Source: Conchocele bisecta
Lineage: Eukaryota > Mollusca > Bivalvia > Lucinida > Thyasiridae
Direction: 5' to 3'
Length of the DNA: 64,000 bases
Assembly (NCBI GenBank): GCA_029237695.1
Contig: CM055266.1
Coordinates: 6,768,064 to 6,832,063, forward strand
The number at the start of each line of letters is the position of its first letter. Within the stretch, counting starts at the first letter, position 1. This document shows, piece after piece, positions 1,050 through 54,900 of the stretch. The position numbers and the translations under genes are program-made. The notes below the pieces were generated by a model. The model saw only the letters and a list, made by a program, of their open reading frames with translations, was not told where the DNA came from and did no database searches.

Positions 1050-1145
1050 GTGGACTCGATGCCCAAAGATGATGGCAGCCTGCTGAAAAAGAGGGAGGAG
1101 TTACAGAAGGAGGTGGAGCAAACAAAGAGGGCATTGGCCACTCAG
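1050..1145 (+). CDS. CCDC146: CCDC146 exon (first in window)
   Basis: A 96-bp, phase 0-0 exon between acceptor 'ttttaccag' and donor 'gtacac'. It reads [20 protein letters not shown] and ends LATQ. It is the start of a coiled-coil stretch. A decayed copy of its 5' end lies just upstream at about 945-987. Earlier exons are outside the window. Confidence 0.82.
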
Positions 1146-4100
1146 GTACACAGAATTTGGCGGGAAACAAACATTATTTTTATGTATGGGTACTTAACTT
1201 ATCAAAACCACAGTGAAAAAAATAGAAAAAAAAGAGCCAACAAAATTGTATTCAATGTTACAGGTGTTAACTGTCACATTTGGTCATCACGCATTTCATA
1301 TTTTCAGTGATTCTCTACTTTTACAACTGTTAAATGTGATGTGCCATGACTAAATAAGCGCAGCTGAAATTATGACCAAATCAGAGTCCATTATTATACA
1401 ATGCTCAACATCGGGTAGTTGGATTGGTCCATTGGCCGGCCAATACAATTGCGTGAATTTGAGGACAAATTTCGAAAACATGCTCAGAAGTCTTGACAAT
1501 CGCTGAGCCTACAAGCATGATGCAAGTAAAGTATCGGTCACGCCGTGTAGTAAGGGTGCCTGGCACCAGATCAGAACACTGTCTTTCAGTGCCGAATGTT
1601 TTAATTATGAATGTACGGTGTTCCCACACTGTTGAATGAATGTAAAACCCCATTCAATTAACCAATACAATCCACGAAATAAACCTCTGTATCGTTATAT
1701 GTGGTTATGACTGGAGAAATGGCGCTTATGGGTTTTGTGACTAGTGTAGATCCAGATCAGCCTGTGCATCCGCACAGTCTGATCAGGATCTGCACTAGTC
1801 GCCATTTCATCAATGAGTGCTACATGAGTGTGCTATTTGATCAGGAGCTACACTGGCCACGAATCGGAGAAGCCACATTTCTCACGTCACAGCCATACAT
1901 TTGGCCACTTACAGCCGATTTCCATTCCAGAACTCACTGACTGCCGTGGAACATGTGCGACTGGAGGCGAGTGCCGCCGAGGAGCAGAATCTCCTCTACA
2001 ACCAGAGTGACCTTCGTATAGAGGTCGTTGAACTCACCCGCCTCGCAGCAATCAAGGTATGCTCAACATGGGGGTTACAGAGCTCCAGATAAATTTTGTA
2101 CCTAAAGAGCAAAAACCACATTCAATTTGTGAATTCTGTAAGAGTTTCTCAATTCTGTCCTAGTAACTTTCATATGCCTTGAAGGATCACCCTAGGTACA
2201 TAGTTGTGCACAAATGCCACACACCCATACTGCTCTTAATATGACATTGAAATTTAGAAATTTTTATTTTTTACGAGTTTCTCAATTATGCTTGACCTTT
2301 CGACCTTCACAACTGTGCTTATGAATAAGTTTGCCACAATTTCTCCAATCTGCCACCGGAGGCATTCGTGTGCCGACAGGCCCACATTTTCTTTTTTTTT
2401 CTAATTGACTAACTTGCGATACTGTTAAACCCTCAAACAGGCAGATGAGCGGGAACAGAAAGCCAGAGACTTTATGAGAGCAGAAATGAGGTTCCACAAA
2501 GCCGTAGAAGACTTGAAGACCAAACAATTACAAATTCAGGACCATCAAAAGAAATACCAAGAAATGCAAATAAAGTAAATCATGTTAGTCACTGGTTGTA
2601 CATTGTTTTGACAATGTGCTGTAAACTTTAACAATCAAATAGTTATTAGAATGATAAACATGTTTATATCTCTGCCCAGATATAGCTATAATCGTGATTT
2701 GCCGCATGGTCTGAAGCAGACCATGCGGCAAATCATGATTATAGCTATATCTGGGCAGAGATATGAATTTATCCCGTCAACACAGTGCGTATGTGCCGTG
2801 AAACACGGTGCCGTGAAATATTTTTGATATCCAGTCAATACAATTTTTGCATTTTACAGCCATTTGTAGGTGTTGACGTGATAAATAGAATAGTAGGTTA
2901 GTGCCGTGAATGGGAAAAAATATCTGGCGCGGCACGGAAACGGGATGTGCTCGGCAGAGCCTCGCCCATCCCGTTTGCTGAGCCTTGCCAGATATTTTTT
3001 CCCATTCACGGCACTAACCTACTATTCTCTATCTATTTTCCTTATTTCTGAACCAAAGTATATGTTGTGACCACTCATTTGAACCGTCTTGGCGAGACGG
3101 TTCAAATGAGTGGTCACAACATATACTTCTGATGAGAAATAAAGAAATTCTTGAGCCTTGCCAGATATTTTTTCCCATTCACGGCACTAACCTACTATTC
3201 TCTATATCATGACCCTCTTAATTTTTCACCAGCTTGAATTTATGTATGTTAATTCACAGAAAATATCTCGAAATCATTTGTTTGCAGCAGAAATATATGA
3301 TGCGTTGATGCTTATGCAATTGTTTTGTTAATTTCCAGATTGCGTGATTTTGCCAAGTTGTACGATGTGATCAAGAATGAGCGAAACAAATGTGTGAACC
3401 TGATACAGACAAGCACACAGAAGGCCGCAGAGATGAGGGAGAAAATTAAAATTCTACAAAATGAAATAGAAATTCTACGCACTGCCGTAACACAAAAAGA
3501 CAGGTATACATTATTCAGTCTTTCTCGGGTGAGATTTTGTGTTTTCTAGTGAGCATTTTTTATGGTTATATAACTTTTACCTCAAATTATGTTCTGACCT
3601 GCATGAAAAAATAATCCGAAAATGTCTTAAGAATTAATTTGTTTCTAGCAAATGCATATTTTACCTTTTCCAACCAATGTTCATTATCGAGTCGCCTAAT
3701 CTTGTTAATTTAATAAAAAAAAAAAGGTTAAATATTCTACTTGATTATGGATAGAATCTTTACAGTTGTAAATCAAACACAGTACCTTTATTTCTCCCGT
3801 CAACACAGTGCGTATATGCCGTGAAACACGGTGCCATGAAACATTTTTGATATCCAGTCAATATTATTTTTGCACTTTACAGCCATTTGTAGGTGTTGAC
3901 GGGATAAATAGAATAGTAGGTTAGTGCCGTGAATGTGAAAAAATATCTGGCGCGGCACGGAAACGGGATGTGCTCGGCAGAGCCTCGCCCATCCCGTTTC
4001 CTGAGCCTTGCCAGATATTTTTTCCCATTCACGGCACTAACCTACTATTCTCTATTTCTGGTGACTTACCTGTTTCATTCTTACAGACACCTACAGAAAC

Positions 4101-7100
4101 AGAGATTAAAACACATGAACAGTATAGTAATGAGAGACAGTTTACGGAATGAAGTTGCTAAGCAACAGAGAATTGAAGAAGAAATGCACGACACACGTGA
4201 TCAACAGAAAATGGACATTTCCAAATTGAACGCTATGATAAATCATTCAGAAGAAATGATGACGAAATTGAGAAATCGGTATGAAAATTCAATCACACAC
4301 AGAAATGAAAGGTTAGTATGGCGCCACTAATGCTTCACATAGAGAATATATACCAGTAGCCTATTTCACCAAAATTGCAAAGTATACTTATCTCGCTAAG
4401 TATACTTTGAGGGCGAAATTTTCAATTTAAGGATAAATTTATTAATTTTTATTGTACTGAATTTATGACATTATCACGGCCATTTTTGGCTGTGATAATG
4501 ATAATGTAATAAATTCAGTATAATAATTCTGCATACTTTTAATCATCAAATATATGCAGTCGTTAGTTCTATATGAAATAATGCATTGCAGGAAAAATAA
4601 ATTATTACTCCCTCAAAGTACACTTTGCTAGATATATAAAGTATGCTTTGCAATTTTGGTGAAATTGGCTACAGGGTAGTCTCTTTTGATATCAAGTTTA
4701 TATGAGACAAGGCTAGGAAACGCGTAGGAATTCCTCGCTGAGTCTAATAACTTGATATCAACAGACACTAGGCTGGTATTCTATTTATCAGGAAACATTT
4801 TATGCTAGCCGATGGACATTTATAAAATAATTTTCATTGAAAAGAAGGCGGGCTTGGTTATGGTGTGTCATTACAATGTCATTGAGTAATGTCAGGTGAC
4901 GCAGTTCAACCAATATTATGTCGGTTTTCAATTTGTTGTAACCCGGATATTCATCAGGTCAATGCCTGATAGGTCATTATGTTATCAGTCAGTATGTATT
5001 CGGCCAAAACAACGTCGTTACTGAGAAACTGGATTTTGTAACATTTTGTTGCCAGTGTAGATCGTGTAGCCGATTTCACCAAAATATCATTTATTTTTCC
5101 CTGAAATGCATTATTTCATATAGAACTAACCGTTGCATATATTATTTGATGATTAAAAGTATGCAGAATTATTATACTGAATTTATTACATTATCACAGC
5201 CAAAATGGCTGTGATAATGTAATAAATTCAGTATAATAAAAATTAATAAATTTCTCCCTCAAATACTTTGCTAGAAAAGTATACTTTGCAATGTTGGTGA
5301 AATAGGCGACTGATCATCATGACATTGTGTTCTACAATCAGGTATTAACCCTTATACCGCTACTCACAACAATTGTCGTCTGCTGTTGCTTTTATATCTT
5401 GCCTTATTTCTCAATAAAAACATGGTTTGACAGCACTTCGGAAATGATTCTGAAGTGCTGTCAAAGCATGTTTTTGATGATAAAAATAGAAAATAAACAG
5501 CAGACGACAAAAGAAATAAGATAGCGGTCTAAGGGTTAACCATTACACCCCTAAATATAAATGACAAGCGATGTGTTTTGTACTTTAATAAGAAGATGTG
5601 ACGGTTTTCATGAAAAATATTATATTCCACATTTGCTCATTTTTCCCCAATTTGTGTAAGTATTCTTCTCCATGTCAACGCCCTGTGCAGGCACCGGGGC
5701 GGGATCAACTGATCCTGAGAATAGTGCTGCAGTAGCCATTGCTTGTCGTAAAAGGCAACTAAACTGGCTTAACGATTGGGTTCATACTTTCCGGAACCCA
5801 CTATACCGGATTTGGCCCTCACGTACATTTTTGGCTTTATTGTATGTGAGAGTTGAGTCAGGCTATGCCCCATATATAAAAGTAATATTAGCGCTAATCC
5901 TATTACTTTTAGGGGATGGGATAAATGATGCTGGTGTGGCGAGGGCCTGGCACCAGATCAGGTTGTTCTAATTTCAGGACTGAATATATATTTTGATTGT
6001 AAATATTGAGTTCTGAAGTTGGGATTTACCCCCCTCGGACAGGTGGATACGGGACACGACCCCGTTGACCCGTCTGCGTGTAGACTCCCTGAGGCTTGTA
6101 CCTCTATGTCAGAAAAGCGGACGTTAAACCCTATTCACTCACTCACTCTCCATGTCAACATGGTAGGTGGAGAGAGTATTTTATCCCGTCAACACAGTGT
6201 GTATGTGCCGTGAAACATTTTTGATATCCTGTCAATACGACCTAATCACTGCGTATGAATATGTGCGGTGGCTGGGGTTATATTTTTGCATTTTACAGCC
6301 ATTTGTAGGCGTTGACGGGATAAATGGAATAGTAGGTTAGTGCCGTGAATGGGAAAAAATATCTGGTGCGGCACGGAAACGGGATGTGCTCGGCAGAGCC
6401 TCGCCCATCCCGTTTCCTGAGCCTTGCCAGATATTTTTCCCATTTACGGCACTAACCTACTACATGTATTCTCTATTTAACCACATTTTATCAATTTGAT
6501 TAACATATCTCTATTTTCAGGGGTATAAAGTTGATTGAACGAAATGAAGAAGTTTGTATTTTCTATGAAAAAGTCAATATTCAAGGTAAGGATTGATTTA
6601 TGTGAATGTCGTGTGTCCAATTTATAATCATATTTGGAATGATCTCACATTTGCTGATATTATGATACTTTTTGTAAATGAGACACGCCATGTGCATTTG
6701 TACCTTCGGAAGTCTGCATAATTTCATTAAAGACGTTTACAAACTTTACAAGATTTTTTTCATAAATAAAGTCAAAAGTTGACAAAATTTTCAGAGTACA
6801 TGTGGAATATATTTCTGCATGTACCCTGCAAATTTTGTCAACTTATGATGTCATTTACAGAAAATATGACATTTTCTGTAATATATTTCATGAAATTACG
6901 CAGATGTCCAAAGGTACAAAGACACATGGCATGTCTCAATGATAACAGAATTTTCAGAGCACAGGTTCTATTATTTTAACCCCATGTAGTGGTTTAACCC
7001 TTACAGTGTTGAATTAAAATTTGTCGTCTGCTGTTTATTTTTTATTTTCCATTTTTCTTATCAAAAACATGCTTTGACAGCAGTTTAGAATCATTTCCAA

Positions 7101-10100
7101 TGGAAATGATTCTAAAGTGCTGTCAAACCAAGTTTTCATTGAGAAATAAGACAAAACATGAAACAAAAGCAGGCGACAATTTTCGTTTCCCGCATTCTAA
7201 GGTTTAACTCTGCAACTGAATAGTGGTTTTGGAAATTATTGTATTGTGTTGCAACAGACTTGGCACCAAACTCAGATATTGTCGATTCTAGTATTACAAT
7301 GTAAACTGTTTAATTTTCGCCATTAGTTGTGTACATGACAACTTATTGATTCTTGCTATGGCTGACTTGGATTTTTTTTATTGCGTTGTCAGGGGATGGG
7401 TCATTCACTTTTTCTTCATTCACTTTTTATTGTATTGTGATAGATTTAGCACCAGACTCCGATCTTGTCGATATAACTATTACAATTATAACTGTTTAAT
7501 TTTGGTCATTGTGAAACTAAACACTTATTGATTCTTGTTTCCACAGACCAGATGATCCGGAATGGCAACGTGGAGCTACAGGGCCGAGAGGAGGAAATTC
7601 GCTTCATCAATATGCAGATGAACGAGGAGAAACGCTCCATTGGCCTGCTCCGAGCTCAACTGCCGAATAAATGCAACCTCGAGGAGGAACAAGTCACACT
7701 ACAAGAACAGGTGAGATTTTTGAGAAAATTTCTGAGAATGCTCGAAATCAGCAAGTTGTATTGGTCGAGGCAGAGGTGTGCTCAGTCTTGGCCAATCAAA
7801 CTGCCTGATATGCCTGACATGCTGGATATAACCAAATACACAATATTGGAGATCCCAAACTAAATATAGCCCTTGTATATAACATATTTAGCAGTTCGAG
7901 GAGCCCATAGATGTATACACATGTGTAGTGATGGGGTTTACCAGAAAAATAATCTCGGATATCTCCATGCGAAATGTAGTCACTGTGTATAACAGATTCA
8001 TCAGTGCCAGGACCCCATAGATGTATATATGTGTGTTGTGATGAGTCTTTCCATAACAAAATGTTGGATATCCCCATGCTAAATATAGTCATTACGTATA
8101 TAACAATTGCAGCAATGCCAGTACATCAAAACAGATGGAAACATGTGTGTAGTGATGGGTTTTCCTATAACAAAATATTACAGCTGCAGCAGTGCCAGGA
8201 CCTCATAGATGTGTATGTGTGTAGGGATCGATTTTCCCCGAACAAAATATTGACTTTTCCCATGCTAAATAGGGTCATTGTGTATTACAGCTGCAGCAGT
8301 GCCAGGACCTCGTAGATGTGTATGTGTGTAGGGATCGATTTTCCCCGAACAAAATATTGAATTTTCCCGATGCTAAATAGGGCCATTGTGTATTACAGCT
8401 GCAGCATGCCAGGACCCTCGATGTGTATGTGTAGGGATCGATTTTCCCCGAACAAAATATTGAATCCTATGCGAATTTTCCCATGCTAAATAGGGCCATT
8501 GTATTACAGCTGCAGCAGTGCCAGGACCTCGTAGATGTAGTGTGTAGGGATCGATTTTCCCCGAATAACAAAATATTGAATTTTCCCATGCTAAATAGGG
8601 TCATTGTGTATTACAGCTGCGGCAGTGCCAGGACCTCATAGATGTGTATGTGTGTAGGGATCGATTTTCCCCGAACAAAATATTGAATTTTCCCATGCTA
8701 AATAGGGCCATTGTGTATTACAGCTGCAGCAGTGCCAGGACCTCGTAGATGTGTATGTGTGTAGGGATCGATCCCCGATCCCGAACAAAATATTGAATTT
8801 TTCCCATGCGAAATATGTCGTTTTTCCCCACAAAATTGTGTATACAGCTCTGCGCAGTGCCAGACCCTCATAGATGTGTATGTGTGTAGGGATCGATTTT
8901 CCCCGAACAAAATATTGAATTTTCCCATGCTAAATAGGGTCATTGTGTATTACAGCTGCGGCAGTGCCAGGACCTCATAGATGTGTATGTGTGTAGGGAT
9001 ACGATTTTCCCCGAACAAAATATTGAATTTTCCCATGCTAAATAGGGTCATTGTGTATTACAGCTGCGGCAGTGCCAGGACCTCATAGATGTGTATGTGT
9101 GTAGGGATCGATTTTCCCCGAACAAAATATTGAATTTTCCCATGCTAAATAGGGTCCATTGTGTATTACAGCTGCGGCAGTGCCAGGACCTCATAGATGT
9201 GTATGTGTGTAGGGATCGATTTTCCCCGAACAAAATATTGAATTTTCCCATGCTAAATAGGGTCATTGTGTATTACAGCTGCGGCAGTGCCAGGACCTCA
9301 TAGATGTGTATGTGTGTAGGGATCGATTTTCCCCGAATTCTAAAACAAAATATTGAATTTTTCCATGCTAAATAGGGTCATTGTGTATTACAGCTGCGGC
9401 AGTGCCAGGACCTCATAGATGTGTATGTGTGTAGTTTTGGATCAGATTTTCCCCGAACAAAATATGAATTTTATTCCCATAGCTAAATAGGGTCATTGTG
9501 TATTACAGCTGCGGCAGTGCCAGGACCTCATAAGGTGTATGTGTGTAGGGATCGATTTTCCCCGAAACAAAATATGAATCCATGCTAAATAGTCATTGTG
9601 TATTACAGCTGCGGCAGTGCCAGGACCTCATAGATGTGTATGTGTGTAGGGATCGATTTTCCCCGAACAAAATATTGAATTTTCCCATGCTAAATAGGGT
9701 CATTGTGTATTACAGCTGCGGCAGTGCCAGGACCTCATAGATGTGTATGTGTGTAGGGATCGATTTTCCCCGAACAAAATATTGAATTTTCCCATGCTAA
9801 ATAGGGTCCATTGTGTATTACAGCTGCGCAGTGCCAGGACCTCATAGATGTGTATGTGTGTAGGATCGATTTTCCCGAACAAAATATTGAATTTTCCCAT
9901 GCTAAATAGGGTCATTGTGAATTACAGCTGCGGTCAGTGCCAGGACCTCATAGATGTGTATGTGTGTAGGGATCGATTTTCCCCCGAACAAAATATTGAA
10001 TTTTCCCATGCTAAATAGTCATTGTATTACAGCTGCGGCAGTGCCAGGACCTCATAGATGTGTATGTGTGTAGGGATCGATTTTCCCCGAACAAAATATT

Positions 10101-13100
10101 GAATTTTCCCATGCTAAATAGGGCCATTGTGTATTACAGCTGCGGCAGTGCCAGGACCTCATAGATGTGTATGTGTGTAGGGATCGATTTTCCCCGAACA
10201 AAATATTGAATTTTCCCATGCTAAATAGGGTCATTGTGTATTACAGCTGCAGCAGTGCCAGGACCTCATAGATGTGTATGTGTGTAGGGATCGGTTTTCC
10301 CCGAACAAAATATTGAATTTTCCCATGCTAAATAGGGCCATTGTGTATTACAGCTGCAGCAGTGCCAGGACCTCGTAGATGTGTATGTGTGTAGGGATCG
10401 ATTTTCCCCCGAACAAAAATATTGAATTTCCCATGCTAAATAGCCATTGTGTATTACAGCTGCAGCAGTGCCGAGACCTCATAGATGTATGTGTGAAGGG
10501 ATCGGTTTTCCCCGAACAAAATATTGAATTTTCCCATGCTAAATAGGGCCATTGTGTATTACAGCTGCAGCAGTGCCAGGACCTCGTATGTGTAGTGTGT
10601 ATGGGATCGATCCCCGAACAAAATATTGAATTTTCCCATGCTAAATAGGGCCATTGTGTATTACAGCTGCAGCAGTGCCAGACCTCGTATGTGTATGTGT
10701 GTAGGGATCGATTTTCCCCGAACAAAAATATTGAATTTTCTATGCTATAGGGCCATTGTGTATTACAGCTGCAGCAGTGCCAGGACCTCGTAGATGTGTA
10801 TGTGTGTAGGGATCGGATTTTCCCCGAACAAAATATTGAATTTTCCCATGCTAAAATAGGGCCATTGTGTATTACAGCTGCAGCAGTGCCAGGACCTCAT
10901 AGATGTGTATGTGTGTAGGGATCGATTTTCCCCGAACAAAATATTGAATTTTCCCATGCTAAATAGGGCCATTGTGTATTACAGCTGCAGCAGTGCCAGG
11001 ACCTCGTAGATGTGTATGTGTGTAGGGATCGATTTTCCCGAACAAAATATTGAATTTTCCCATGCTAAATAGGGCATTGTGTATTACAGCTGCAGCAGTG
11101 CCAGGACCTCGTAAGATGTGTATTGTGTAGGGATCGATTTTTTCCCCGAACAAAATATTGAATTTTTTTTTTGCATGCTAAATAGGGCCATTGTGTATTA
11201 CAGCTGCAGCAGTGCCAGGACCTCGTAGATGTGTATGTGTGTAGGGATCGATTTTCCCCGAACAAAATATTGAATTTTCCCATGCTAAATAGGGTCATTG
11301 TGTATTACAGCTGCAGCAGTGCCAGGACCTCGTAGATGTGTATGTGTGTAGGGATCGATTTTCCCCGAACAAAATATTGAATTTTTCCCATGCTAAATAG
11401 GGTCATTGTGTATTACAGCTGCAGCAGTGCCAGGACCTCGTAGATGTGTATGTGTGTAGGGATCGGTTTTCCCCGAACAAAATATTGAATTTTCCCATGC
11501 TAAATAGGGTCATTGTGTATTACAGCTGCAGCAGTGCCAGGACCATCGAGATGTGTATGTGTAGGGATCGTCCCCCCGAACAAAATAGTTGATTTTCCCA
11601 TCTAGGTTTTCCATTGTGTATTACAAAAGCTGCAGCAGTGCCAAGGACCTTTTCCCGTATGTGTATGGTAGGGATCGTCCCCGAAACAAAATATGTATTT
11701 TCCATTGCTAAATAGGGTCATTGTTTTATTACAGCTGCAGCAGTGCCAGGACCTCGTAGATGTGTATGTGTGTAGGGATCGATTTTCCCCGAACAAAATA
11801 TTGAATTTTCCCATGCTAAATAGGGTCATTGTGTATTACAGCTGCAGCAGTGCCAGGACCTCGTAGATGTATGTGTGTAGGATCGTTTTCCTTTTTCCCC
11901 CGAACAAAATATTGAATTTTTCCCATGCTAAATAGGGTCATTGTGTATTACAGCTGCAGCAGTGCCAGGACCTCGTAGATGTGTATGTGTGTAGGGATCG
12001 ATTTTCCCCGAACAAAATATTGAATTTTCCCATGCTAAATAGGGTCATTGTGTATTACAGCTGCGGCAGTGCCAGGACCTCGTAGATGTGTATGTGTGTA
12101 GGGATCGATTTTCCCAGAACAAAATATTGAATTTTCCCATGCTAAATAGGGTCAATTGTGTATTACAGCTGCGGCAGTGCCAGGACCTCGTAGATGTTGT
12201 AGGATTCGTTTTCCCAACAAATATTGAATTTTCCCATGCATAGGGTCAGTGTATTACAGCTGCAGGCAGTGCCAGACCTCGTATGTTATTGTTTTTGATC
12301 GTTTTCCCCGAACAAAATATTGAATTTCATCTAAAATAGGGTCATTGTGTATTACAGCTGCAGCAGTGCCAGGACCTCATAGATGTGTAGTGTTGTAGGG
12401 ATCGATTTTCCCCGAACAAAATATTGAATTTTCCCATGCTAAATAGGGTCATTGTGTATTACAGCTGCAGCAGTGCCAGGACCTCATAGATGTGTAATGT
12501 GTGTAGGGATCGATTTTCCCCGAACAAAATATTGAATTTTCCCATGCTAAATAGGGCCATTGTGTATTACAGCTGCAGCAGTGCCAGGACCTCGTAGATG
12601 TGTATGTGTGTAGGGATCGATTTTCCCCGAACAAAATATTGAATTTTCCCATGCTAAATAGGGCCATTGTGTATTACAGCTGCAGCAGTGCCAGGACCTC
12701 GTAGATGTGTAATGTGTGAGGGATCGGTTTTCCCGAACAAAATACAAAAAAATTGTGAATTTTCCCATGCTAAATAGGGCCATTGTGTATTACAGCTGCA
12801 GCAGTGCCAGGACCTCGTAGATGTGTATGTGTGTAGGGATCGATTTTCCCCGAACAAAATATTGAATTTTCCCATGCTAAATAGGGTCATTGTGTATTAC
12901 AGCTGCAGCAGTGCCAGGAACCTCGTAGATGTGTATGTGTGTAGGGATCGATTTTCCCCGAACAAAATATTGAATTTTCCCATGCTAAATAGGGCCATTG
13001 TGTATTACAGCTGCAGCAGTGCCAGGACCTCATAGATGTGAAGGGATGTCCCCGAACAAAATATTGTAGAAATAGGGGCGATTCGTGCATCCCCAGACTA

Positions 13101-16100
13101 GAGTATTGAATCATTTTCCCCATGAACTAAATAGGGCCATTGTGTATTACAGCTGCAGCAGTGCCAGGACCTCATCCCCATGATTTTGTGTATAGTGTGT
13201 AGGGATCAGGTTTTCCCCAATCCCCTGAATAAAATATTCTTTTTTTTTTTTTTTTTTTTTTTTCCCCCTATTGAATTTTTCCCATGCTAAATAGGGCCAT
13301 TGTGTATTACAGCTGCAGCAGTGCCAGGACCTCGTAGATGTGTATGTGTGTAGGGATCGGTTTTCCCCGAACAAAATATTGAATTTTCCCATGCTAAATA
13401 GGGTCATTGTGTATTACAGCTGCAGCAGTGCCAGGACCGTATGCTGGAGCTGGAGAAGGAAGTGGAAAACCCGTACGATGAGAAACGTGTCCACTTTCTG
13501 CAGGGCAAGGATTTACCACCTGCAGAACTACATGAGAAGATTGAAGATGTAAGTCGGGGGCCCATTTCAGTAAACTTTGTACAACTAAGAAGTTTGTAAG
13601 TGCTAAACTAAAATTTACAACAAAATTTGCATTAGCTGTCCATTTTGAGAATCTTTGGTGAATTTGATCACTTGCTTGCGGACAGCACGATATAGTTGGC
13701 ACATTGGCGTATGTACGTACGTGCTATGTGCGTCCGGGTTTGGTGTTAATTTTTTATTTTTTTTAAATTTATGGTATAATTCCAGCACAAAAATATTTAC
13801 ACAATTCCCTAACATTTGATTGGCCCGTAGCAAGTCTCTGTCCAAAATTTATATCCCAGTAAACTCCCACGCCGAACTACTTTCCGTAACCGTGAGGTGC
13901 AGTTAAAATAATTCTTAAGAAAACGGAAAATAAACACCTTTTTTTTTATGAATGTATTTCAAATGCTGGAATTATAAGGAATGAATGACCTTTTTGTGGA
14001 ATTTATCGGGGATATAAACTTGGAAAAGTCGCGCGAATACTGGACGAGGCCTTCCGGCCTTCGTCCAGTATTCCCGCGACTTTTCCAAGTTTATACCCCG
14101 ATAAATTCCACAAAAAGGCCATTCATTCCTATAATATCAAAGCCTTGGCGGGCGCGACATGCGGGCCGCGGCCATCTCGTTAACATGATCGGCCATCACT
14201 GGCATGCATCCTGATACAGATCTAAGGTTTTCAGTAGGTACATTTTGATTTTTTTTCTTGTTAAATAACCTGTCGTGTAGCTACAAAACAGAATGCACAG
14301 TCTGACCTGTGTTGGCAAACCGAATAATTTGTTGTGGCGGATTCCATATGGCATGTGATAAGCAAATACTGGTTGGTTCGAATCTTATTTCAACCCTTGT
14401 ATCTGCAGGTCAGACCATCTTGTCATGTCCTACCCTCAAATTCAATATGAATTTATCGGAGAATCATCAGATTTTGTTTACGATCTTTTGTCGTGACACA
14501 GTCAGGTTAAGTGGAACTTATTACTATATAGTATTGTTCTTTTGACCAGTGTAGTTACTAATCGGGAAGCACTCTCGTACTGCATGTTACATTCTGTTTA
14601 AAAGACAATGCTGGTAGGGTACCATTATTTTAGTTCAGAATTTCTTTACAATGCCCTACTTAGTCCATGCAATCAATTAAAGGTACATGCCCACTCAGTA
14701 AGCACAAAATGTTCTTTATAGGAATTAAATAAGTGTATAATTGTGTCACTATTCCACCAGTTCTAAAAATTACAAGTGCCCGGAAAACAGATATAATCAT
14801 TTAGTAATATTTATTTTACGGATAGTGACGCGCGTTGGTATCAGGCTATTTTCATATGCAAATGAGGCATGATACTTTTTACTTATTTATACTAATGAAA
14901 TGCGTCACCTGAAAAAATAAATATTTTCGACAGATTATAAAGTACCGGTAAGATCATTGCACATCAAAAAATAAATACAGAGAATAAATAGTAATGTCTG
15001 TTAGCATTTTAAGGAAACACGGTTATCGCCCCTGATATCAGTGTGAAAATTTTCGTCTAAAATAAAATGTATAATAATGCCAATCAATATGTGGGGTAAT
15101 GGTGAATGAATGTTTTTTTGTCAGATGTCATATGTACAGAATATATAAAAGTATCTGTATCACTATAAGGTTTTATCATGTCCAGCCGTGTGCAAACGTT
15201 TGCTGTGGCCCGAGGGAACTGTTTGAACCCCAAGGCCGCAGGCCGCGGGTTCAAACAGTTCCCGAGGGCCACAGCAAACGTTTGCACACGGCTGGACATG
15301 ATCAAATGTTATTGTTACATTTCCAACAAAAAACTGATGTAATTTGAGTATTATATTCAGTATTTTCAGTACTTTTATAAAATCGTCCCATTCACGTAGA
15401 TAATTTTCGGTATTCATATTCCGGGGCCGCGTCATGAACGTCATGAAGTAGTGACGTCATGAAGGCACTTCCGCATAGTGACGTCATGAAGGCACTTCCA
15501 TTACGCGCGGCCCCGGAATGAGCATTGCCTAAAGCCATGTGCAAACAGCACGCGCTATTTGTTTGCACATATGTGCAAACAACGGAAACCATGTAACAAT
15601 ATATTATAACCTACTGCGTGGGCATGTACCTTCAACTATAAATGAAGCTCAACCTCAAACAATCCAAAATAGAGAACAAGATACGCAATGGAGACCCATG
15701 AACACATGATTATGGGTAAATATTTTACAGTGCAACCTCTACAACAGCCACCCATGGGAAGATGTAAAACTGGCTGTTGTAGAGAGGCGGCTGTTGTAGG
15801 CAGGTTAATGCTGAATTAAATTTTATCGTCTGATGTTTATTTATTTTCTTCGTTAATTCTCATCAAATACATGCTTTGACAGCATTTTAGAATCATTTCC
15901 AATGGAAATGATTCTAAAGTGCTGTCAAAACATGTTTTTATTGAGAAAGAATGCAACAGTAACATCAGACGATAATGTTCATGCTCAGCAGTCTAAGGGT
16001 TAGATATAGAGGAAATCATCCATTTGGGATATAAAATAGCGGCTGTTACAGAGAGGGTGTTGTTGTAGAGAGGTGGCCGTTCGGGGAGGTTCCACTGTAC

Positions 16101-19100
16101 AATCAAATAAATCAAATGTTTGGTAATAATACTGAACACAATCCAGTCACTGCTAATGAGTTTGCTAACAGACATAAATAAAGCATTTTGCAATCACTGA
16201 TCACTCCATGTATTTCAGTTGGAGGTTCGGCTGGCAGAGAAGGAAGAGCAGCTACTGGAGAAGGACCTTGTGTTTGAGCAGGTCACGCGGTTGGCAGGGC
16301 GTGTCCGCGGCAAGGCCGAGACCGGAAAGGAGGATACACTCGAACTCGCAAAGAAGGTGAGATTGGTTAATATTGAAGTGGTCTCTGTAAGAAGGGGGCT
16401 ATGTCCATAAATAATGGACTTCGCCCCCGCCCCCTTCATCCACTAACCTCCATCAATTTGCAACACAAATTTCAGGGACATGTTTACCCAGCTTTTCGAG
16501 TATGTTTTCTATTTTCATTCTCGAAATCAGACATGGCATCGAGTACAAATTTAGATAATGCACATATTAAGTTTTATAAACATATATAAAGAATATGACT
16601 TGACCTTTTTTGAATATTGTTAATAGGGTGGGGCGATTTGGTGGTTAAGACAAAATCCAAAACAGACATAAAATTCCAGTCCGCCATTCATTGTGACACA
16701 GTCATCTATTGCACAGGTTGAAGTAACGGACCGAGGTCTATAAATACATTAAATATGGCAAAAAGCATATATAAATGAAAAAGAAATATTAAAGCTAAAA
16801 AAATTATTTATATATGCTTTTAGGCATGTGTAATGTATTTATAGACCTCGGTCCGTTACTTCAACCTGTGACCTATTGGAGAGCTGAGTTCAGGACCAGC
16901 CATGCAGCAGCTGTTACAAGAAGGAACTTCGCAACAATTAAGTAACGCAGGTACCATTGTACATGGTCAGTCATAAACGGTGTTTGTCATAGGTGAACAA
17001 GATATCAATCCAGAAAGCCATTGAGATGCAATAAATCATACATTCAATACTGTCCCATGTCCATCACAGGTGAATGACCTGCAGTTTCGGATCAAAGACA
17101 CAACGAGGAAGATGATGGCGATGGTGTCGGAGGTTTCGATGAACCAGGCGACGGCCCTGAAGCTACAGCAGAGTCTGAAGGAGAAGGAGGGCGACCTGGA
17201 GCAGTGCTACATCCACATGGAGAAGGGCGAGCCGCCCAGCGTCGAGATCGAACGCGATTGGATGAAGCTGCTGCGTGACGACGATCGCCAAGCCATGGAA
17301 CATGAGGAGAAGAGACTGGTACGTTGTTTTGTGTATTTCATGAAGAAATATCTTCGTTCATGTGGTTGTTATACCCCTTGCTTATGAAATATACTGAGGG
17401 GTATATAGTTTTCGCCTTTCCGTACATCAATCGTCCGTCCATTTGCTCGTCCGTCCTTAACACAAAAACTTACGTTCAAAATTTGCGTTTTTGTTTGTCA
17501 GTGCAGGCGGCGGCTGGGAGTATTTGTGAGCCCCTGCCCACTTACTCTAGTTTAACATTGTTACATGGTTTCCATTGTTTGCACATATGTGCAAACATAT
17601 AGCGCGTGCTGTTTGCATATGGTTTTAGGCAATGCTCATTCCGGGGCCGCGCGTAATGGAAGTGCCTTCATGACGTCACTACTTCATGACGTTCATGATG
17701 CGGCCCCAGAATATGAATACCGAAAATTATCTACGTGAATGGGACGATTTTTAAAAGTACTGAAAATCTGAATAATAATGCCAATTACATCATTTTTTTG
17801 GGTTGGAAATGTTAACAATAACGATTTTTGATCATGTCCAGCCTGTTTCAAACGGTTTTGCTGTGGCCTGCGGCCTTTTGGGTTCAAAAGTTTCCCTCGA
17901 GCCACAGCAAACGTTTGCAAACGGCTGGACATGATCAAACCTTGTATTACACCCCAATCTGACATCGCCCATCTCGGTTAAACTTATTGATTTTTAGTTG
18001 ACTGATTTCGTACATAATTGCCATCAGTAATCAACATAACAATTTTCACTCTGCCTCCAATCCATTCAGAGTTGTGCCCCTTTTCTGACTTGGCGAATCT
18101 CATTTTTGCTTGTCCGGCTAACTAACCTACAGTTTTCAGCCGACTAGCTTCAAACTCTGCATATATTATCACCATCCATCAAGTGCTGCAGTGTGTAGGA
18201 AAAATAAAATCCCCTCCGTCTCTGTGTAGGGTAATCAAATTAAGTACATGTACATATACGTGTTCATAATTCCAGCACAAAAATATTTACACAATTCCCT
18301 AACATTTGATTGGCCCGTAGCAAGTCTCTGTCCAAAATTTATATCCCAGTAAACTCCCACACCGAACTACTTTCTACAGGTGCGCTGTCAGTGCTGTCGA
18401 TTTAACCAAATGGCTGCCGTCTGTCAAAATAAACACATTTTTCTTGATGAATTTATTTCAAATGCTGGAATTATAAGGAATGAACGGCCTTTTTGTGGAA
18501 TTTATCGGGGATATAAACTTGGAAAAGTCGCAAGAATACTGGACGAGGCCTTCCGGCCTTCGTCCAGTATTCCCGTGACTTTTCCAAGTTTATACCCCGA
18601 TAAATTCCACAAAAAGGCCATTCATTCCTATAATGAAAATCTGCAAAAGGGGCATTGTCTGTGTCTTGCAGTTCAATTTTGCAGTTTACGATGAATGTAT
18701 TGTGAACCGTATTCACCCATTGATGTCCATGTATACAATACTTTCTATATATAAAAATCTCATTATTTCTTTATAAAAGTATATATAACATACTAATACT
18801 ATACTATACTAATATTGAACAGAAATAGACAACAGAGCTCCAGATAAGCTGCGTATTTGTGTAAATACCCAATTAAAATGGCCAAAAACCCAATTGAAAT
18901 CAGAAGTAGTGAGTATCAGAAAGCAATGAGAACAATAATTTGTGGTACCTTTATCATGCTGCAGAAAACATCAACAGGCCACCAATATAGCATATTTAAT
19001 TCTAATGAAATCCCAAGACATGTTTTCATTTCGAAACAAACTATTCAATAATTGCTGTCTGTTGATGTGTAAACAGTAGTGTGATTTTATTTTTACCTAA

Positions 19101-19462
19101 TTAAAATTTTGAAATACCCAATTGCTTCAGAAATGATGGAGTAACAATACTCAATTACTAATTCCTTATCTGGAGCACTGAGACAAACTAGGGAGAAAAA
19201 AAATCAAAATTTTAATTTACATACTACCGGCTTATAATTGGTTAACTTTCCTGTTCAGATCGAGGAGGAAGAGGACCAGTACCAGATCGCGGGCGGAGTC
19301 ACGACGACGGCTGAGCCTCGGCCCAACGCCTATATTCCCGATGATGACAGTGAGCTGCCTATTCCACGACCGTATGGGAAACACGCTCCGTTCAAACCAA
19401 ACGAGCCCGGATCGACAATGCGCCATATCAGAAAACCTATTCCGAAGCCGATCGAAATTTAA
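1050..19462 (+). CDS. CCDC146: CCDC146 orthologue, 3' part of gene (11 exons, introns included in span)
   Basis: Eleven exons (1050-1145, 1931-2056, 2441-2574, 3339-3503, 4087-4311, 6521-6585, 7547-7710, 13420-13548, 16219-16356, 17070-17318, 19259-19462) join with consistent phases and GT-AG borders into 564 codons ending in TAA. The product is Glu/Lys/Gln-rich coiled coil almost throughout, followed by a non-coiled C-terminal tail with the motifs [30 protein letters not shown] and [14 protein letters not shown]. These, and the internal motifs DQMIRNG and [17 protein letters not shown], match my memory of vertebrate CCDC146 closely. The family protein (about 950 aa in human) sits at centrioles and axonemal doublet microtubules and is needed for sperm flagella; the Chlamydomonas counterpart is MBO2. 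The N-terminal third must lie upstream of the window. The identification is from recalled sequence, not a search. Confidence 0.92.
1699..1897 (+). mobile_element. hairpin element K, copy in CCDC146 intron
   Basis: Begins 'atgtggttatgactggagaa' with the core 'gtgtagatccagatcagcct'/'ctgatcaggatctgcacta', and ends with a diverged inverse (aagccacatttctcacgtcacagcca). Copies also at 20597-20850, 30855-30960, 38950-39183, 45728-45880, 52763-52972, 57000-57215, 57560-57672 and 58336-58412. Its end is about 33 bp from the acceptor of the exon at 1931. Confidence 0.85.
1931..2056 (+). CDS. CCDC146: CCDC146 exon
   Basis: A 126-bp, phase 0-0 exon after 'gatttccattccag' and before 'gtatgc'. It encodes 42 residues beginning [21 protein letters not shown] chose the acceptor at 1930 over the AG at 1914 because only it keeps phase 0 from the preceding exon. 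A hairpin element ends about 33 bp upstream. Confidence 0.82.
2441..2574 (+). CDS. CCDC146: CCDC146 exon
   Basis: Acceptor 'cctcaaacag', donor AA|gtaaat; 134 bp, phase 0 to 2. It encodes [20 protein letters not shown] and continues as charged coiled coil to EMQIK, whose last Lys codon is completed by the next exon. Confidence 0.85.
2665..2762. repeat. long near-perfect palindrome
   Basis: Arms of about 45 bp starting 'tatctctgcccagatatagc', meeting at 'gccgcatggtctgaagcagaccatgcggc'. It abuts composite element B at 2767. Confidence 0.88.
2767..3033 (+). mobile_element. composite two-hairpin element B, copy 1
   Basis: Module 1 has ends 'tttatcccgtcaacac' and 'gtgttgacgtgataaa'. Module 2 follows at once: 'agaatagtaggttagtgccg' ... 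'cggcactaacctactattct', with 'gatgtgctcggcagagcctcgcccatc' at the tip. The same two-module order occurs at 3789-4055 and 6180-6477. Confidence 0.88.
3041..3146. mobile_element. hairpin element C, copy 1
   Basis: Perfect hairpin 'aagtatatgttgtgaccact'...'gaccgtctc'-type core (here cgtcttggcgagacg). It is flanked by two copies of the right arm of element B (2984-3033 and 3152-3208). Other copies near 38099-38170, 40328-40400 and 51117-51171. Confidence 0.85.
3152..3208 (+). repeat. duplicated right arm of element B
   Basis: About 55 bp ('cttgagccttgccagatatt' onward) repeats 2980-3033 almost exactly without its inverted partner. Confidence 0.85.
3339..3503 (+). CDS. CCDC146: CCDC146 exon
   Basis: Acceptor 'taatttccag', donor AG|gtatac; 165 bp, phase 2 to 2. 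It begins [20 protein letters not shown], a segment of the kind seen in the middle of CCDC146 ([13 protein letters not shown]), and ends [10 protein letters not shown]. Confidence 0.87.
3789..4055 (+). mobile_element. composite two-hairpin element B, copy 2
   Basis: Same order and orientation as copy 1, in the next intron of CCDC146. It ends about 30 bp before the exon at 4087 and gives rise to spurious open frames. Confidence 0.88.
4087..4311 (+). CDS. CCDC146: CCDC146 exon
   Basis: Acceptor 'cattcttacag', donor AG|gttagt; 225 bp, phase 2 to 2. Encodes about 75 coiled-coil residues beginning [20 protein letters not shown]. The longer open frame that starts at 3929 upstream lies in a MITE and is not coding. 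That composite MITE ends only about 30 bp before the exon. Confidence 0.87.
4354..4673 (+). mobile_element. palindromic MITE family A, full length
   Basis: About 320 bp. Ends CAGTAGCCTATTTCACCAA and its inverted partner (ttggtgaaattggctac), a subterminal 'gcaaagtatactt' repeat on each side, and a central hairpin 'attatcacggcc'/'ggctgtgataat'. It lies in the CCDC146 intron 4312-6520. Other copies at 5064-5312 (-), 20200-20400 (3' truncated) and 51361-51668. Superfamily unknown. Confidence 0.9.
4676..5060 (-). mobile_element. element D (TCAAGTTTAT / AGGAATTCCTCGG hairpin)
   Basis: Shares 'cttttgatatcaagttta', 'gtaggaattcctcg' and 'ctggtattctatttatcagg' with 50130-50430 and 56140-56522. This copy is rearranged and diverged toward 5060. 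Confidence 0.65.
5064..5312 (-). mobile_element. palindromic MITE family A
   Basis: Inverted relative to the copy at 4354. Starts 'gtgtagccgatttcacc', ends 'ggtgaaataggcgactg', with a perfect central hairpin. Confidence 0.88.
5346..5541. mobile_element. MITE family E (AACCCTTA ends, ACAGCACTT core)
   Basis: Ends 'taacccttataccgcta' and 'tagcggtctaagggttaa', shoulder 'ccttatttctcaataaaaac', core 'tttgacagcacttc...gaagtgctgtcaaa'. Related copies at 6996-7206, 15803-16004, 48690-48942 and, diverged, 38240-38437 and 48955-49130. Confidence 0.85.
5666..6150 (+). mobile_element. SINE-like element V, longest copy
   Basis: Contains 'gtcgtaaaaggcaactaaac', 'ggcctggcaccagatcagg', 'ttctaatttcaggactgaat' and 'gggatttacccccctcg', ending 'gcggacgttaaaccc'. 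Shorter copies at 165-410, 25790-25995, 45440-45600 and 46390-46622 (+47811-47962), and diverged on the minus strand near 31700-31830. Dispersed and without terminal inverted repeats, hence SINE-like; no clear A/B box identified. Confidence 0.6.
6180..6477 (+). mobile_element. composite two-hairpin element B, copy 3
   Basis: Same order and orientation, in the third successive intron. It has about 25 extra bases near 6237-6275 and ends about 43 bp before the exon at 6521. Confidence 0.88.
6521..6585 (+). CDS. CCDC146: CCDC146 short exon
   Basis: A 65-bp exon too short for a simple ORF scan. Acceptor 'ctctattttcag', donor CAAG|gtaagg; phase 2 to 1. It encodes [20 protein letters not shown]. 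Both phases agree with the neighbouring exons, which is the main support. Confidence 0.87.
6680..6940. mobile_element. hairpin element F, copy 1
   Basis: Outer ends 'gacacgccatgtgcatttgt' and 'ggtacaaagacacatggcat'; inner 'gttgacaaaattttcagagt' pairs with 'gcaaattttgtcaac'. Second full copy at 58066-58330; fragments near 54713-54801 and 58430-58500. Confidence 0.82.
6996..7206. mobile_element. MITE family E
   Basis: Ends 'taacccttacagtg' / 'cattctaaggttta'; core 'ctttgacagcagtttagaat' with loop 'tttccaatggaaa'. In the CCDC146 intron before exon 7547. Confidence 0.82.
7547..7710 (+). CDS. CCDC146: CCDC146 exon
   Basis: Acceptor 'cttgtttccacag', donor CAG|gtgaga; 164 bp, phase 1 to 0. Begins [20 protein letters not shown] and ends [11 protein letters not shown]. 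The DQMI.NG...IRF pattern is one of the parts I recognise best as CCDC146. Its 3' intron holds the 107-bp array. Confidence 0.92.
7826..13437 (+). repeat. 107-bp tandem array, about 50 units, each with a 3' splice acceptor and exon start
   Basis: The consensus unit is 107 bp. It runs from 'ctgcagcagtgccaggacct' through 'cgtagatgtgtatgtgtgta', 'gggatcgattttccccgaac' and 'aaaatattgaattttcccat' to 'gtgtattacag'. Typical spacing between neighbouring 'attacag' sites is 107-108. Every intact unit carries a pyrimidine/AG acceptor followed by CTGCAGCAGTGCCAGGAC (or CTGCGG). The last copy leads straight into the true exon at 13420. Units at the left edge (7826-8160) are strongly diverged; the rest are near-identical. 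Variants (CTGCAG/CTGCGG, GTCATTG/GCCATTG, CTCGTAG/CTCATAG) occur in blocks. Indel-rich units lie near 8780-8860, 9330-9590, 11540-11700, 12190-12340 and 13030-13270, the last containing a 20-plus T run. Confidence 0.97.
13420..13548 (+). CDS. CCDC146: CCDC146 exon preceded by its own amplified acceptor
   Basis: A 129-bp, phase 0-0 exon after 'gtgtattacag' and before gtaagt. It begins [20 protein letters not shown], then [20 protein letters not shown]. Bases 13420 to about 13437 are the last, coding copy of the sequence repeated through the array upstream; sequence beyond that point is unique. Confidence 0.92.
13660..14220. mobile_element. element H interrupted by MITE G
   Basis: 13660-13777 and 14136-14220 match a continuous stretch at 21940-22090 ('acagcgtgatatagtcggca' ... 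'atcaaagcctcggcaggcgc'). Here the two halves are separated by the G element. Confidence 0.75.
13778..14135 (+). mobile_element. MITE family G, copy 1 (nested)
   Basis: Two modules: 'aattccagcacaaaaatatt' to 'aatgctggaattataagg', then a long hairpin 'ggaatgaatgacctttttgt' ... with tip 'ctggacgaggccttccggccttcgtccag'. Copies at 18268-18634, 28111-28527 (-) and 34545-34904. Inserted in element H. Confidence 0.9.
14679..15632. mobile_element. TTAA-flanked MITE family I, enlarged by insertion
   Basis: Starts TTAAAGGTACATGCCCACTC and ends 'gcgtgggcatgtaccttcaa'. Interior matches 21259-21747 in reverse up to about 15110, after which module J (15165-15600) replaces the expected sequence. The TTAA at the left end suggests a TTAA-targeting (piggyBac-like) origin; this is inference. 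Confidence 0.8.
15165..15600 (+). mobile_element. element J, two-part hairpin unit
   Basis: Hairpin 'tcatgtccagccgtgtgcaa' ... 'cacggctggacatgatca' followed by 'attccggggccgcg' ... 'cgcggccccggaat', then 'gtttgcacatatgtgcaaac'. The internal 'tgacgtcatgaaggcacttcc' is present twice. Inverted copy at 17565-17945, diverged copy at 36263-36765, fragment at 25405-25482. Confidence 0.82.
15728..16099. mobile_element. element with TACAGTG...CACTGTA ends, carrying a nested family E MITE
   Basis: Outer parts 'tacagtgcaacctctacaac' and 'gaggttccactgta' contain 'ggctgttgtagagaggcgg'-type repeats. The family E element at 15803-16004 sits inside. A related unit with 'gtacaattgaacctgtg' lies at 22771-22945. 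Confidence 0.75.
15803..16004. mobile_element. MITE family E, nested
   Basis: Core 'tgctttgacagcattttaga' with 'tttccaatggaaa' tip and 'tctaagggtta' end. Confidence 0.8.
16219..16356 (+). CDS. CCDC146: CCDC146 exon
   Basis: Acceptor 'catgtatttcag', donor AAG|gtgaga; 138 bp, phase 0-0, 46 residues. It contains [20 protein letters not shown] and ends DTLELAKK. This is highly typical of the family's C-terminal coiled coil, and it is GC-richer than the introns. Confidence 0.93.
16715..16872. mobile_element. hairpin MITE family O, copy 1
   Basis: Near-perfect inverted ends 'acaggttgaagtaacggacc' / 'ggtccgttacttcaacctgt', about 45 bp each. Enlarged copy at 26786-27180. Confidence 0.88.
17070..17318 (+). 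CDS. CCDC146: CCDC146 exon
   Basis: Acceptor 'ccatcacag', donor CTG|gtacgt; 249 bp, phase 0-0, 83 residues starting [20 protein letters not shown] and including [20 protein letters not shown]. The first codon is an internal GTG, not a start. Exon GC is markedly above that of the flanks. Confidence 0.93.
17565..17945 (-). mobile_element. element J, inverted copy
   Basis: Reverse of 15165-15600: 'gtttgcacatatgtgcaaac', then 'attccggggccgcgcg', then the 'tcatgtccagcc' hairpin. One copy of the 'gacgtcatgaaggcacttcc' motif instead of two. Confidence 0.82.
18268..18634 (+). mobile_element. MITE family G, copy 2
   Basis: Full two-module copy in the last CCDC146 intron; both modules and the 'gaggccttccggcctt' tip are intact. 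Part of it reads open in both directions but is not coding. Confidence 0.9.
18834..19183 (+). mobile_element. MITE family M (GAGCTCCAGATAAG ends)
   Basis: Starts 'gagctccagataagctgcgt' and ends 'ccttatctggagcact'; body 'acccaattgaaatcagaagt' and 'ttgcttcagaaatgatggag'. Lacks most of the usual central 'cattagaattgtctcc' hairpin. Confidence 0.88.
19259..19462 (+). CDS. CCDC146: CCDC146 terminal exon with stop
   Basis: Acceptor 'ctttcctgttcag', stop TAA at 19460-19462; 67 residues. It opens with an acidic run ([14 protein letters not shown]) and then the conserved tail [25 protein letters not shown], and a terminus ending KPIEI. No AATAAA was seen close by; the variant ATTAAA occurs at 19704, so the 3' end of the mRNA is undecided. 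Confidence 0.95.
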
Positions 19463-51900: not shown

Positions 51901-54900
51901 CAGTACCCTTTTTGTTGAAATTCAATTCCTTCATTGAAAGTATTAATAGATAGTTTTGTCACAGGATGTACAAATGTTTAAATATAAAAAGTATTCAAAA
52001 CGTTATGGTCTACACTTACACAGTGTAGTGTTAACTCTTTGCATGCTGGGAAATTTGTGGGCTATAAATAGTTCAAAAATAGCAGATGATAATTCATTAT
52101 ATTTACTTTTATTTCTCCTTATAAATGTCATGAATATGTCTTGGAATTTCATTAGAATTGTGTCCGGAGGACACAATTCTAATGAAATTTCAAGACATAT
52201 TTACAGAGAGAAATAAAACATATACTCCTAATTCGTTTGGCGGATATTTCTGCCGCTAGCATGCAAAACAATTTACGCCATTTTAATCAAAACAATTTAC
52301 GCCATACAGCTGCATATTTGAGAAGCACAAATCTTAAGTGCTCCTGTTAAATCGATCCTACTTCCATAGCATGGCAGATGTTCTTAACGAGATCATTACA
52401 GAATAATCTTATTTTCAAATGTTTCAGAAGATGATTAAAAAACAATTCCGCCTGCTGTTTGCATGCATTGGCACGTTAAGTTTTGATGTTACCTCATTGT
52501 ATATTTTCTTTTTTTGTTTGATGTTGTCCATAATTCATATTGTTGTCAATGTCAGAGGCATATATATCTGGCAATGTTTGAGTCTTTGACCAGTGTAGCT
52601 CCTGATCAGCTAGCGCAATCCGTCTACTAGCATGATTCAGGTCAAATGCAAACACAACAGGCCTTGGTCAGACTGTGTAGATGTGATAACTGATCTGTGT
52701 TACACCTGTTTGGAATGGCACAATGGGACAATTGTCTCGAGGAATGGCAACTAATCATTAGCTATATGTGGCTGTGACGGAGAAATGGGTCTTATGAGTT
52801 TTATCGCCAGGCTATCTCCTGATCTTCTAACACAGCCCTCGGCATGATAAGGATTTACACTGTTTGTTTGTCGGACAAGTTTTTCACTGACTGAATTGCG
52901 ATCAGTGCAGATCCTGGATCTACACTGATCTCAATGTCCATAAACACCATTTCCCGGTCGCAGTCACATATTTTGAGCGTACTCTGTATATAAAACAATA
53001 GTCGACCTACGTTTTGGTTGAATAGTCATACGTCTTGCTGTGTCATGTGACACCTTGCTTAATTGCCCTCAACTGTTGCAAGTTAATTTATTAACTGAAA
53101 TAGTATCGCTGTTTAAAATACAATTTTAACTGTTTCAAGAAAGCAATTTTACAAGTTCTCCTGTATTTTTTTCTGTTTTATTTTTCCCTTTCCATGCTGT
53201 TCCATTGTTCGCGACTACCTAATATAATATTGGACCTATGAATAAATGTATTGCTCACCTTTGGAGTAAAAAAAAAATTGACAATGTATTTTTTGTGTCT
53301 TTTATATCACGTTTATCAGACTTAGCTAATTTTCCGACCAGTGCAATCATCACAAAATGATTTTCCAACTAGCCCATATATAAAATGGGATGTTTTTTTT
53401 CTCTATTAAAAAATAAGAAAATTACTTGCAAAAAGTGTAGATCCTGATAAGACGGCTCGTCACGAGCCGGCTCATCTAGATCTACACTGTTTGCGTGCAC
53501 CGTTATCGAGGTCTGTAGTGTTGAAAGGGTTAACCATTAGTGTCAATTTTGGCAAATATCTCACACAAATATTATTACCTTTACAGGCTGTGGATTGCAA
53601 CCTGGAAGAGTGTGATATTGTCTATAGCCATTATACAAGGAATCAGCCACATCATTTTCAACCCAAACATTCAATTTTGCCGAAACACCTCACACAAATA
53701 TTATTCCCTTTACTGGCATGGGATGGGTTGTGGACTAGGGGTTAGAACAGCTGACTACCAATGCCTTAGGCATCAACAATACTTTCAGGGTATTTCCATC
53801 CCACTGGTCTTTCGGATGAGACTTGAAACTGAGGTCCTGACTCTAAATGGTATTCGCTGTTGCTGCGACGTTAACCCTTTCAACACCACACGCCTGTATA
53901 GTGATATTGGCAAAACGTGTAGATCCAGATGAGCCGGCTCTTGACGAGCCGTCTCATCAGGATCTGCACTTTTTGCAAGTAATTTTCATATTTTTGAGAG
54001 AGAAAAAACACCCTCTTTTCATAAATGGACTTGTCTGAAAATCATTTTGTGATTGGTTGCAAAATTAACACATTAAAATCCATGCAAGTTCCTTAGGGGG
54101 GAAAGGGTATACCCACTCACTTTCACTTTTCACTTTACAGGCGGTGGAGTGTAACCAAGATGAGTGTGTGCGGCTGCTCATCGAGTATCGGGCCGAGGTG
54201 GATGCCATTGACAGAGATGGCAATACGGCGCTACATCTCGCAGTCCGCGAGGGCTTCGCTAACATCGCCACCGTTCTCATCAACGGGGGCGCAAATTTCA
54301 ACCAGAAAAACAGGGTACGTTTACACTGCTGGAGGCAATATTGTCATGATGGTTTTATTTTTCTCATTTTCTCATGTGGCTTTTTTTTTGTTATTGAAGA
54401 AAAGCTGATCAAACAAAACATGAACAGCCGAAACTTGTTTTTTTTAATAGAAATATTGAGAATGAAAAAAAGAAGCAAATGACAAAATTGTAGTCGTCAC
54501 CTGTGAAAATGGATCTTTTTTCGCTTTGTGTTCCGTCTTCTGGCATAAATGTTGTGTGCGTGCGTGCATGCGTCTGTATGTGCATGCATGTGTGGTGTGA
54601 GTTTGTGGAAGTCAATTTAGCCCCATTTCTCCAGTCACGGCCACAAATAAGAACATCTACTAATGTAATTCAGACCGTACAATTCCAGTCCCCCGATGCC
54701 AGAGTTAATGCCGTCATTTATGGAAAATATCGTAAATTTTGTAAATATTTTTCAAGAGATACCGCACATGTTCTGAGGTACAAAATCTTAGGCACGTCTC
54801 AAATGTAATTCAGCCATACAATTCCAGTCCCCCGTGCCAGAGCTAATGCCTGTGGATGTTTTTGCAGATGGGCTACACCCCGCTACACCTGTCTGTGTTG

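Follow-up and report, generated by a model that had tools for sequence, protein, structure and literature searches.

How does a gene splice correctly when the 3′ end of one of its introns, together with the start of the next exon, stands in about 50 tandem copies, and which of these acceptors is used? The question is raised by a locus of the bivalve Conchocele bisecta, contained in a window of 64,000 nucleotides (contig CM055266.1 of assembly GCA_029237695.1, positions 6,768,064 to 6,832,063). The window occupies 6.77-6.83 Mb on a sequence of 160.7 Mb, which belongs to an assembly of 1.89 Gb and 1,196 contigs. Positions below are those of the window, and the features involved are the following, with exon-intron boundaries marked by a slash:

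1050..19462, forward strand: CCDC146/CFAP58-type gene, 11 exons in the window, GT-AG introns, a single frame open to the stop.
7547..7710, forward strand: exon 5′ of the array, donor CAG/GTGAGA, ending in phase 0, U1 pairing −11.1 kcal/mol.
7711..13419, forward strand: array-bearing intron, 5,709 nt, phase 0.
7833..8183, forward strand: diverged 5′ copies of the unit, acceptor AG lost in two of three, 77 substitutions in 328 aligned bases.
8184..13438, forward strand: homogeneous part of the array, in 107-bp units, of which the final one extends 19 nt into the real exon.
13332..13438, forward strand: terminal unit, with 88 nt from the intron end and 19 nt from the exon start, identical to the consensus apart from a single common variant.
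13420..13548, forward strand: real exon after the array, 129 nt, both ends in phase 0, donor GAT/GTAAGT.

The joined product of the 11 exons counts 564 residues (by eye, further exons of the gene lie upstream of the window). It matched the Pfam family CFAP58_CC (E 2e-12), and its residues 13-452 matched the CFAP58 chain of PDB 8glv (E 6.4e-38), while the one NCBIfam match, to a coiled coil, stayed below threshold (28.1 bits vs a cut-off of 567). CCDC146 and CFAP58 are related, and the C-terminal part of the product, past the CFAP58 match, presumably resembles CCDC146. The product is a flagellum-type protein. The first-pass annotation had proposed a coding gene around the array, in agreement with the open 11-exon frame, and had named it CCDC146: the name is plausible for a gene of this type, although the sequence match obtained is to the related CFAP58 only. 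In human and mouse, loss of CCDC146 is reported to cause male infertility, and MBO2 is given as its Chlamydomonas orthologue (PMC10942651). Other elements of the window were seen by eye: an inverted-repeat element occurs in three similar copies in the introns of the gene (2890-3030, 3900-4050, and 6320-6470), and an open frame at 54069-54482, with an ankyrin-repeat-like stretch, probably belongs to a second gene as one of its exons.

The array fills about 5.6 kb of its intron, the longest of the ten of the gene in the window (the remaining ones span 384-2,670 nt). It consists of about 50 head-to-tail copies of a 107-bp unit (7833-13438), each made up of the 88 nt of the intron end and, after them, the 19 nt with which the exon opens (CTGCAGCAGTGCCAGGACC, corresponding to 13420-13438). 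After the shared GACC, the exon reads GTATGC and the array copies read TCGTAG or TCATAG. TRF found a period of 107 with 45.4 copies at 8176-13040 (score 7404), besides diverged copies at 7862-8176. A fuzzy scan allowing up to 8 differences located 51 acceptor/exon-start sites, the first at 7985 and the last, the real one, at 13420; one extra diverged copy, outside these 51, starts near 7838. Both methods thus recover the array of about 50 copies of 107 bp that had been described; its shared exon start, put at about 18-20 bases, measures 19 nt, and its start, placed at 7826, is close to the one found here. A search for older copies of the unit in the stretch from the donor to 7832 was negative: its best score was 12, against 21-25 for the five highest of 300 shuffles.

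In a DNA search of the species' own 1.89-Gb assembly, which scored its best candidate regions (in this case one), all 51 matches listed were at the array locus. A dispersed repeat was rejected, there being no match elsewhere in the assembly among the matches listed, and 51 sites at one locus rule out a chance origin. No second haplotype was seen, as a protein search with the two flanking exons listed those two exons only. A heavily damaged copy, just before the penultimate acceptor, contains a T run of about two dozen (13239-13263).

To what extent do the copies resemble the real acceptor? An AG is present at 50 of the 51 sites, at one of them (11630) as AAAG; it is lacking at the remaining site and, outside the 51, in the oldest copy. 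In the homogeneous part, 45 of the 47 non-terminal copies read ACAG/CTGC. Over positions −20 to +3, the 49 upstream AG sites comprise 18 identical to the real site, 17 differing by one base, and 14 by at least two, so that 35/49 are within one base and the near-identity claimed for these 3′ splice sites is borne out. The real acceptor has the fewest pyrimidines among the 11 of the gene (8/16), and its longest run, of 2, is the shortest among them; site choice could therefore be leaky. Recursive splicing at AG/GT was discarded, as GT follows the acceptor in none of the 50 AG sites (−20 to +3 examined). A stable hairpin was not found in the unit, which is less stable than its shuffles (z +1.38), nor was a known RNA family found in 7500-13800 (no Rfam match at the gathering score).

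The last acceptor, at 13420, appears to be the productive one, on the basis of the open 11-exon frame and of a gapless match: residues 642-734 of CFAP58 align, through the junction, with the exons joined at 7710/13420 (E 0.00038). Together with the donor at 7710, this evidence supports the junction previously annotated between the two positions. Skipping of the 129-nt exon would preserve the frame.

We translated all the 49 upstream AG acceptors through to a stop, and the frame is retained by the last acceptor only. An upstream acceptor would lengthen the exon by 107 to 5,424 nt: it measures 129 nt from the last site, 236, 396, and 538 nt from the next ones, and 5,553 nt at most. The exon would be extended rather than missing, a point on which the earlier reading is corrected. 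In each of the 49 cases the premature stop precedes the last exon junction by more than 55 nt. In 48 of them it lies within the array, whereas the reading from acceptor 13313 continues into the following exon in a wrong frame. The earlier reasoning on phase, frameshift, and early stop thus holds. Its expectation of a stop at the next TCG TAG describes the commonest outcome, an added reading of 43 residues ending at the next TCGTAG or TCATAG (14/49), but not the rule, the others ranging from 7 to 125 residues. Under the 55-nt rule for nonsense-mediated decay, the mis-spliced mRNA from all 49 acceptors is predicted to be degraded.

Since local sequence cannot separate most sites, and exon context can, exon definition is favored as the basis of the choice. 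It would pair acceptor 13420 with the donor at 13548, and the array would leave as intron: the last copy alone would have a proper exon behind it, with 129 nt of coding sequence and a donor of the type used. Occasional use of an upstream copy would give an early-stop mRNA, which would be degraded. The array multiplies the acceptor and not whole exons, and because the unit carries an acceptor but weak donor-like sites, exon definition would select the last copy. Indeed, U1 pairing of the ten GTs of the consensus unit ranges from −0.5 to −4.5 kcal/mol (the strongest being TGTGTAGGG, −4.5), and that of the ten donors of the gene from −1.8 to −11.1 kcal/mol. These donor scores are a crude measure: a few GTs of single copies reach −4.6 to −5.4 kcal/mol, so that the best ones in the array score like two real donors (−4.9, the donor of the array's exon, and −4.4), and one real donor scores −1.8. 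The picture of about 50 competing acceptors is correct for the near-identity of the sites, but they would be unequal competitors if exons are recognized as a whole, given their weak donor-like sites.

In minigenes with identical duplicated acceptors, the nearer one tends to win unless the exon context differs, a preference that tends to count against the choice of the last site. Both these minigenes, built to see which site is chosen, and the present array have identical acceptors in tandem; the former contain a few engineered copies, whereas here about 50 natural copies occur in a gene whose frame is maintained.

In amphioxus (lancelet), intron-exon boundaries duplicated in the manner of a minisatellite are described under the name of mirages, and are reported not to disturb splicing (PMC3087553, PMC3902484). 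The mirage of the globin gene BflGb6 is described with units of 150-160 bp, in 6 and 3 copies in two haplotypes; RT-PCR suggested normal splicing, and the draft genome version was misassembled (PMC3087553). The PGBD5 mirage is reported as an imperfect 3 × 108 bp triplication, the Adh3 units as 10-72 bp long, and the Adh and TnC mirages are said to be without aberrant mRNAs (PMC3087553, PMC3902484). Mirages are also described as unstable in length, both from one haplotype to another and somatically; in the present assembly a single copy of the locus was found. The minisatellite presented in PMC3039753 concerns transcription starts and not copies of splice sites.

By its anatomical features, the present array is of the mirage kind: the tandem repeats span a boundary (88 nt of intron and 19 nt of exon), splice signals are found in many but not all repeats (AG at 50/51 sites), and a concerted interior, with blocks of variants, excludes the boundary copies (92/5,064 aligned bases substituted in the main array, about 98% alike, vs 77/328 in the 5′ copies). 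As in BflGb6, the intron 3′ end and exon start are copied in tandem, splice signals occur in many copies with the authentic exon last, and the center is homogenized with the boundary copies left out. The two differ in unit and copy number (107 bp and about 50 here) and in the evidence, as RT-PCR addressed splicing in BflGb6 whereas the present array is known from genome sequence alone. The Adh3, TnC, and PGBD5 mirages likewise have tandem repeats overlapping splice sites of working genes; PGBD5 has three copies and Adh3 shorter units, and these mirages can duplicate both donor and acceptor boundaries, whereas only the acceptor is duplicated here. The kind is thus already published, with splicing reported as normal. 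What is new is the length of the array, about 50 copies where the amphioxus mirage most like it has 3 or 6, and its occurrence in an assembly of 1.89 Gb, a size that makes Branchiostoma (about 0.5 Gb) unlikely. A limited search of the open-access literature, a weak guide in this respect, found no report of mirages outside amphioxus. Overall, we consider it probable that the array is a mirage-type minisatellite, with the last acceptor chosen by exon definition and the array removed, use of the last site being what the frame predicts.

The history of such an array would begin with a tandem duplication reaching from 88 nt before the intron end to 19 nt into the exon. The exon-derived part is still visible in the three drifted 5′ copies, two of which have no AG, so the founding duplication presumably already held the boundary. 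Unequal exchange and local amplification would then have raised the unit to about 50 copies, while coding selection would have held the exon-adjacent copy and the far 5′ copies drifted. Variants occur in blocks (in the 12 copies of the stretch 8956-10140, for instance, all but one have a G at unit position 93), a pattern of repeated local amplification. As a separate observation, the 3′ part of the intron just 5′ of exon 7547..7710 is directly duplicated as well, in an older event (7236-7355 and 7427-7537; local score 96, with a maximum of 34 in 300 shuffles). The match stops 9 nt short of the exon, and the upstream copy lacks an AG at this place; this is a second boundary-near duplication in this CCDC146/CFAP58-type gene.

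Among the alternatives, the one that survives best is that the copies are leaky decoys: a sizeable share of transcripts would use upstream copies and be degraded, and array length would set the amount of functional mRNA. The 18 identical and 17 nearly identical upstream copies, the weak pyrimidine tract, and the early stops from all 49 upstream acceptors are in its favor, as is the uneven damage across the unit. Of the 107 unit columns, the quietest 39 are 67-105, which cover the acceptor and exon start and contain 32 of the 166 events (8291-13438). When each of 47 units was rotated, leaving out the coding copy and correcting for window choice, p was 0.0002 for all events and 0.0064 for indels, but 0.19 for substitutions alone, which speaks against this explanation. 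For columns 69-107, a fixed window picked after the per-column table was seen, rotation of each of 48 units gave p 0.00015 for events and 0.0006 for units, and the binomial test gave p 5e-6 for all events (33/166), 0.021 for substitutions (6/35), and 0.0001 for indels (27/131); some one-base events at the unit border are assignable to either side. In the 32 cleaner units, however, columns 69-107 show no depletion (11/34 events, p 0.72). The sparing may reflect coding selection on lineages that went through the last position, sequencing-error context, or selection on the copies. Considering also that amphioxus mirages are reported without splicing disturbance (PMC3087553, PMC3902484), we regard leaky decoys as unlikely.

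The array could also be partly an assembly product, i.e., a real but shorter or cleaner array to which consensus errors added copies and many indels. The main array (8202-13438) is indel-rich, with 140 indel events and 92 substitutions, whereas the 5′ copies have 10 and 77; this excess, found in the main array only, suggests consensus errors or unusual slippage. Elsewhere in the window, a 32-bp array of about 91 copies (59872-62797) is substitution-rich, with 159 substitutions and 22 indel events. Furthermore, the amphioxus globin mirage is reported as misassembled in the draft genome (PMC3087553). On the other hand, 44 of the 48 units are distinct, the block-wise variants argue against one assembler loop, and the diverged 5′ copies show that an array is real and not young. 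This explanation appears quite improbable; nevertheless, as the homogeneous part is unusually indel-rich, its copy number and unit sequences should be read with caution and may contain assembly errors.

It is very doubtful that the copies are kept because they act, as a decoy of variable length that determines how much mRNA of this flagellar gene survives, a dosage rheostat of competing identical 3′ splice sites; if this were true, selection on the copies would have left its mark in the sparing of the acceptor and exon start. Tiny in-frame exons of 21, 27, or 33 nt, each adding about 7, 9, or 11 coiled-coil residues, are scarcely credible: a GT does occur at these frame-keeping distances after the acceptor in 21, 39, and 31 of the 49 copies, respectively, but these donor-like sites are weak (−0.5 to −1.6 kcal/mol) and CFAP58 aligns across the junction without any insertion. 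Mutually exclusive exons of the Dscam type were rejected, as the consensus-unit GTs are weak on the same crude U1 scale and 48 of the 49 read-throughs stop in the array.

Returning to the preferred reading, a mirage-type array removed by exon definition, the locus offers about 50 natural acceptors that are almost alike in local sequence, each at a different distance from the donor and in a different downstream context. These copies set the local strength of a site apart from exon context and transcription order within one gene whose frame is intact. The array would show that boundary-spanning minisatellites can far exceed the copy numbers of amphioxus, probably outside Branchiostoma, while leaving the frame of the gene intact.
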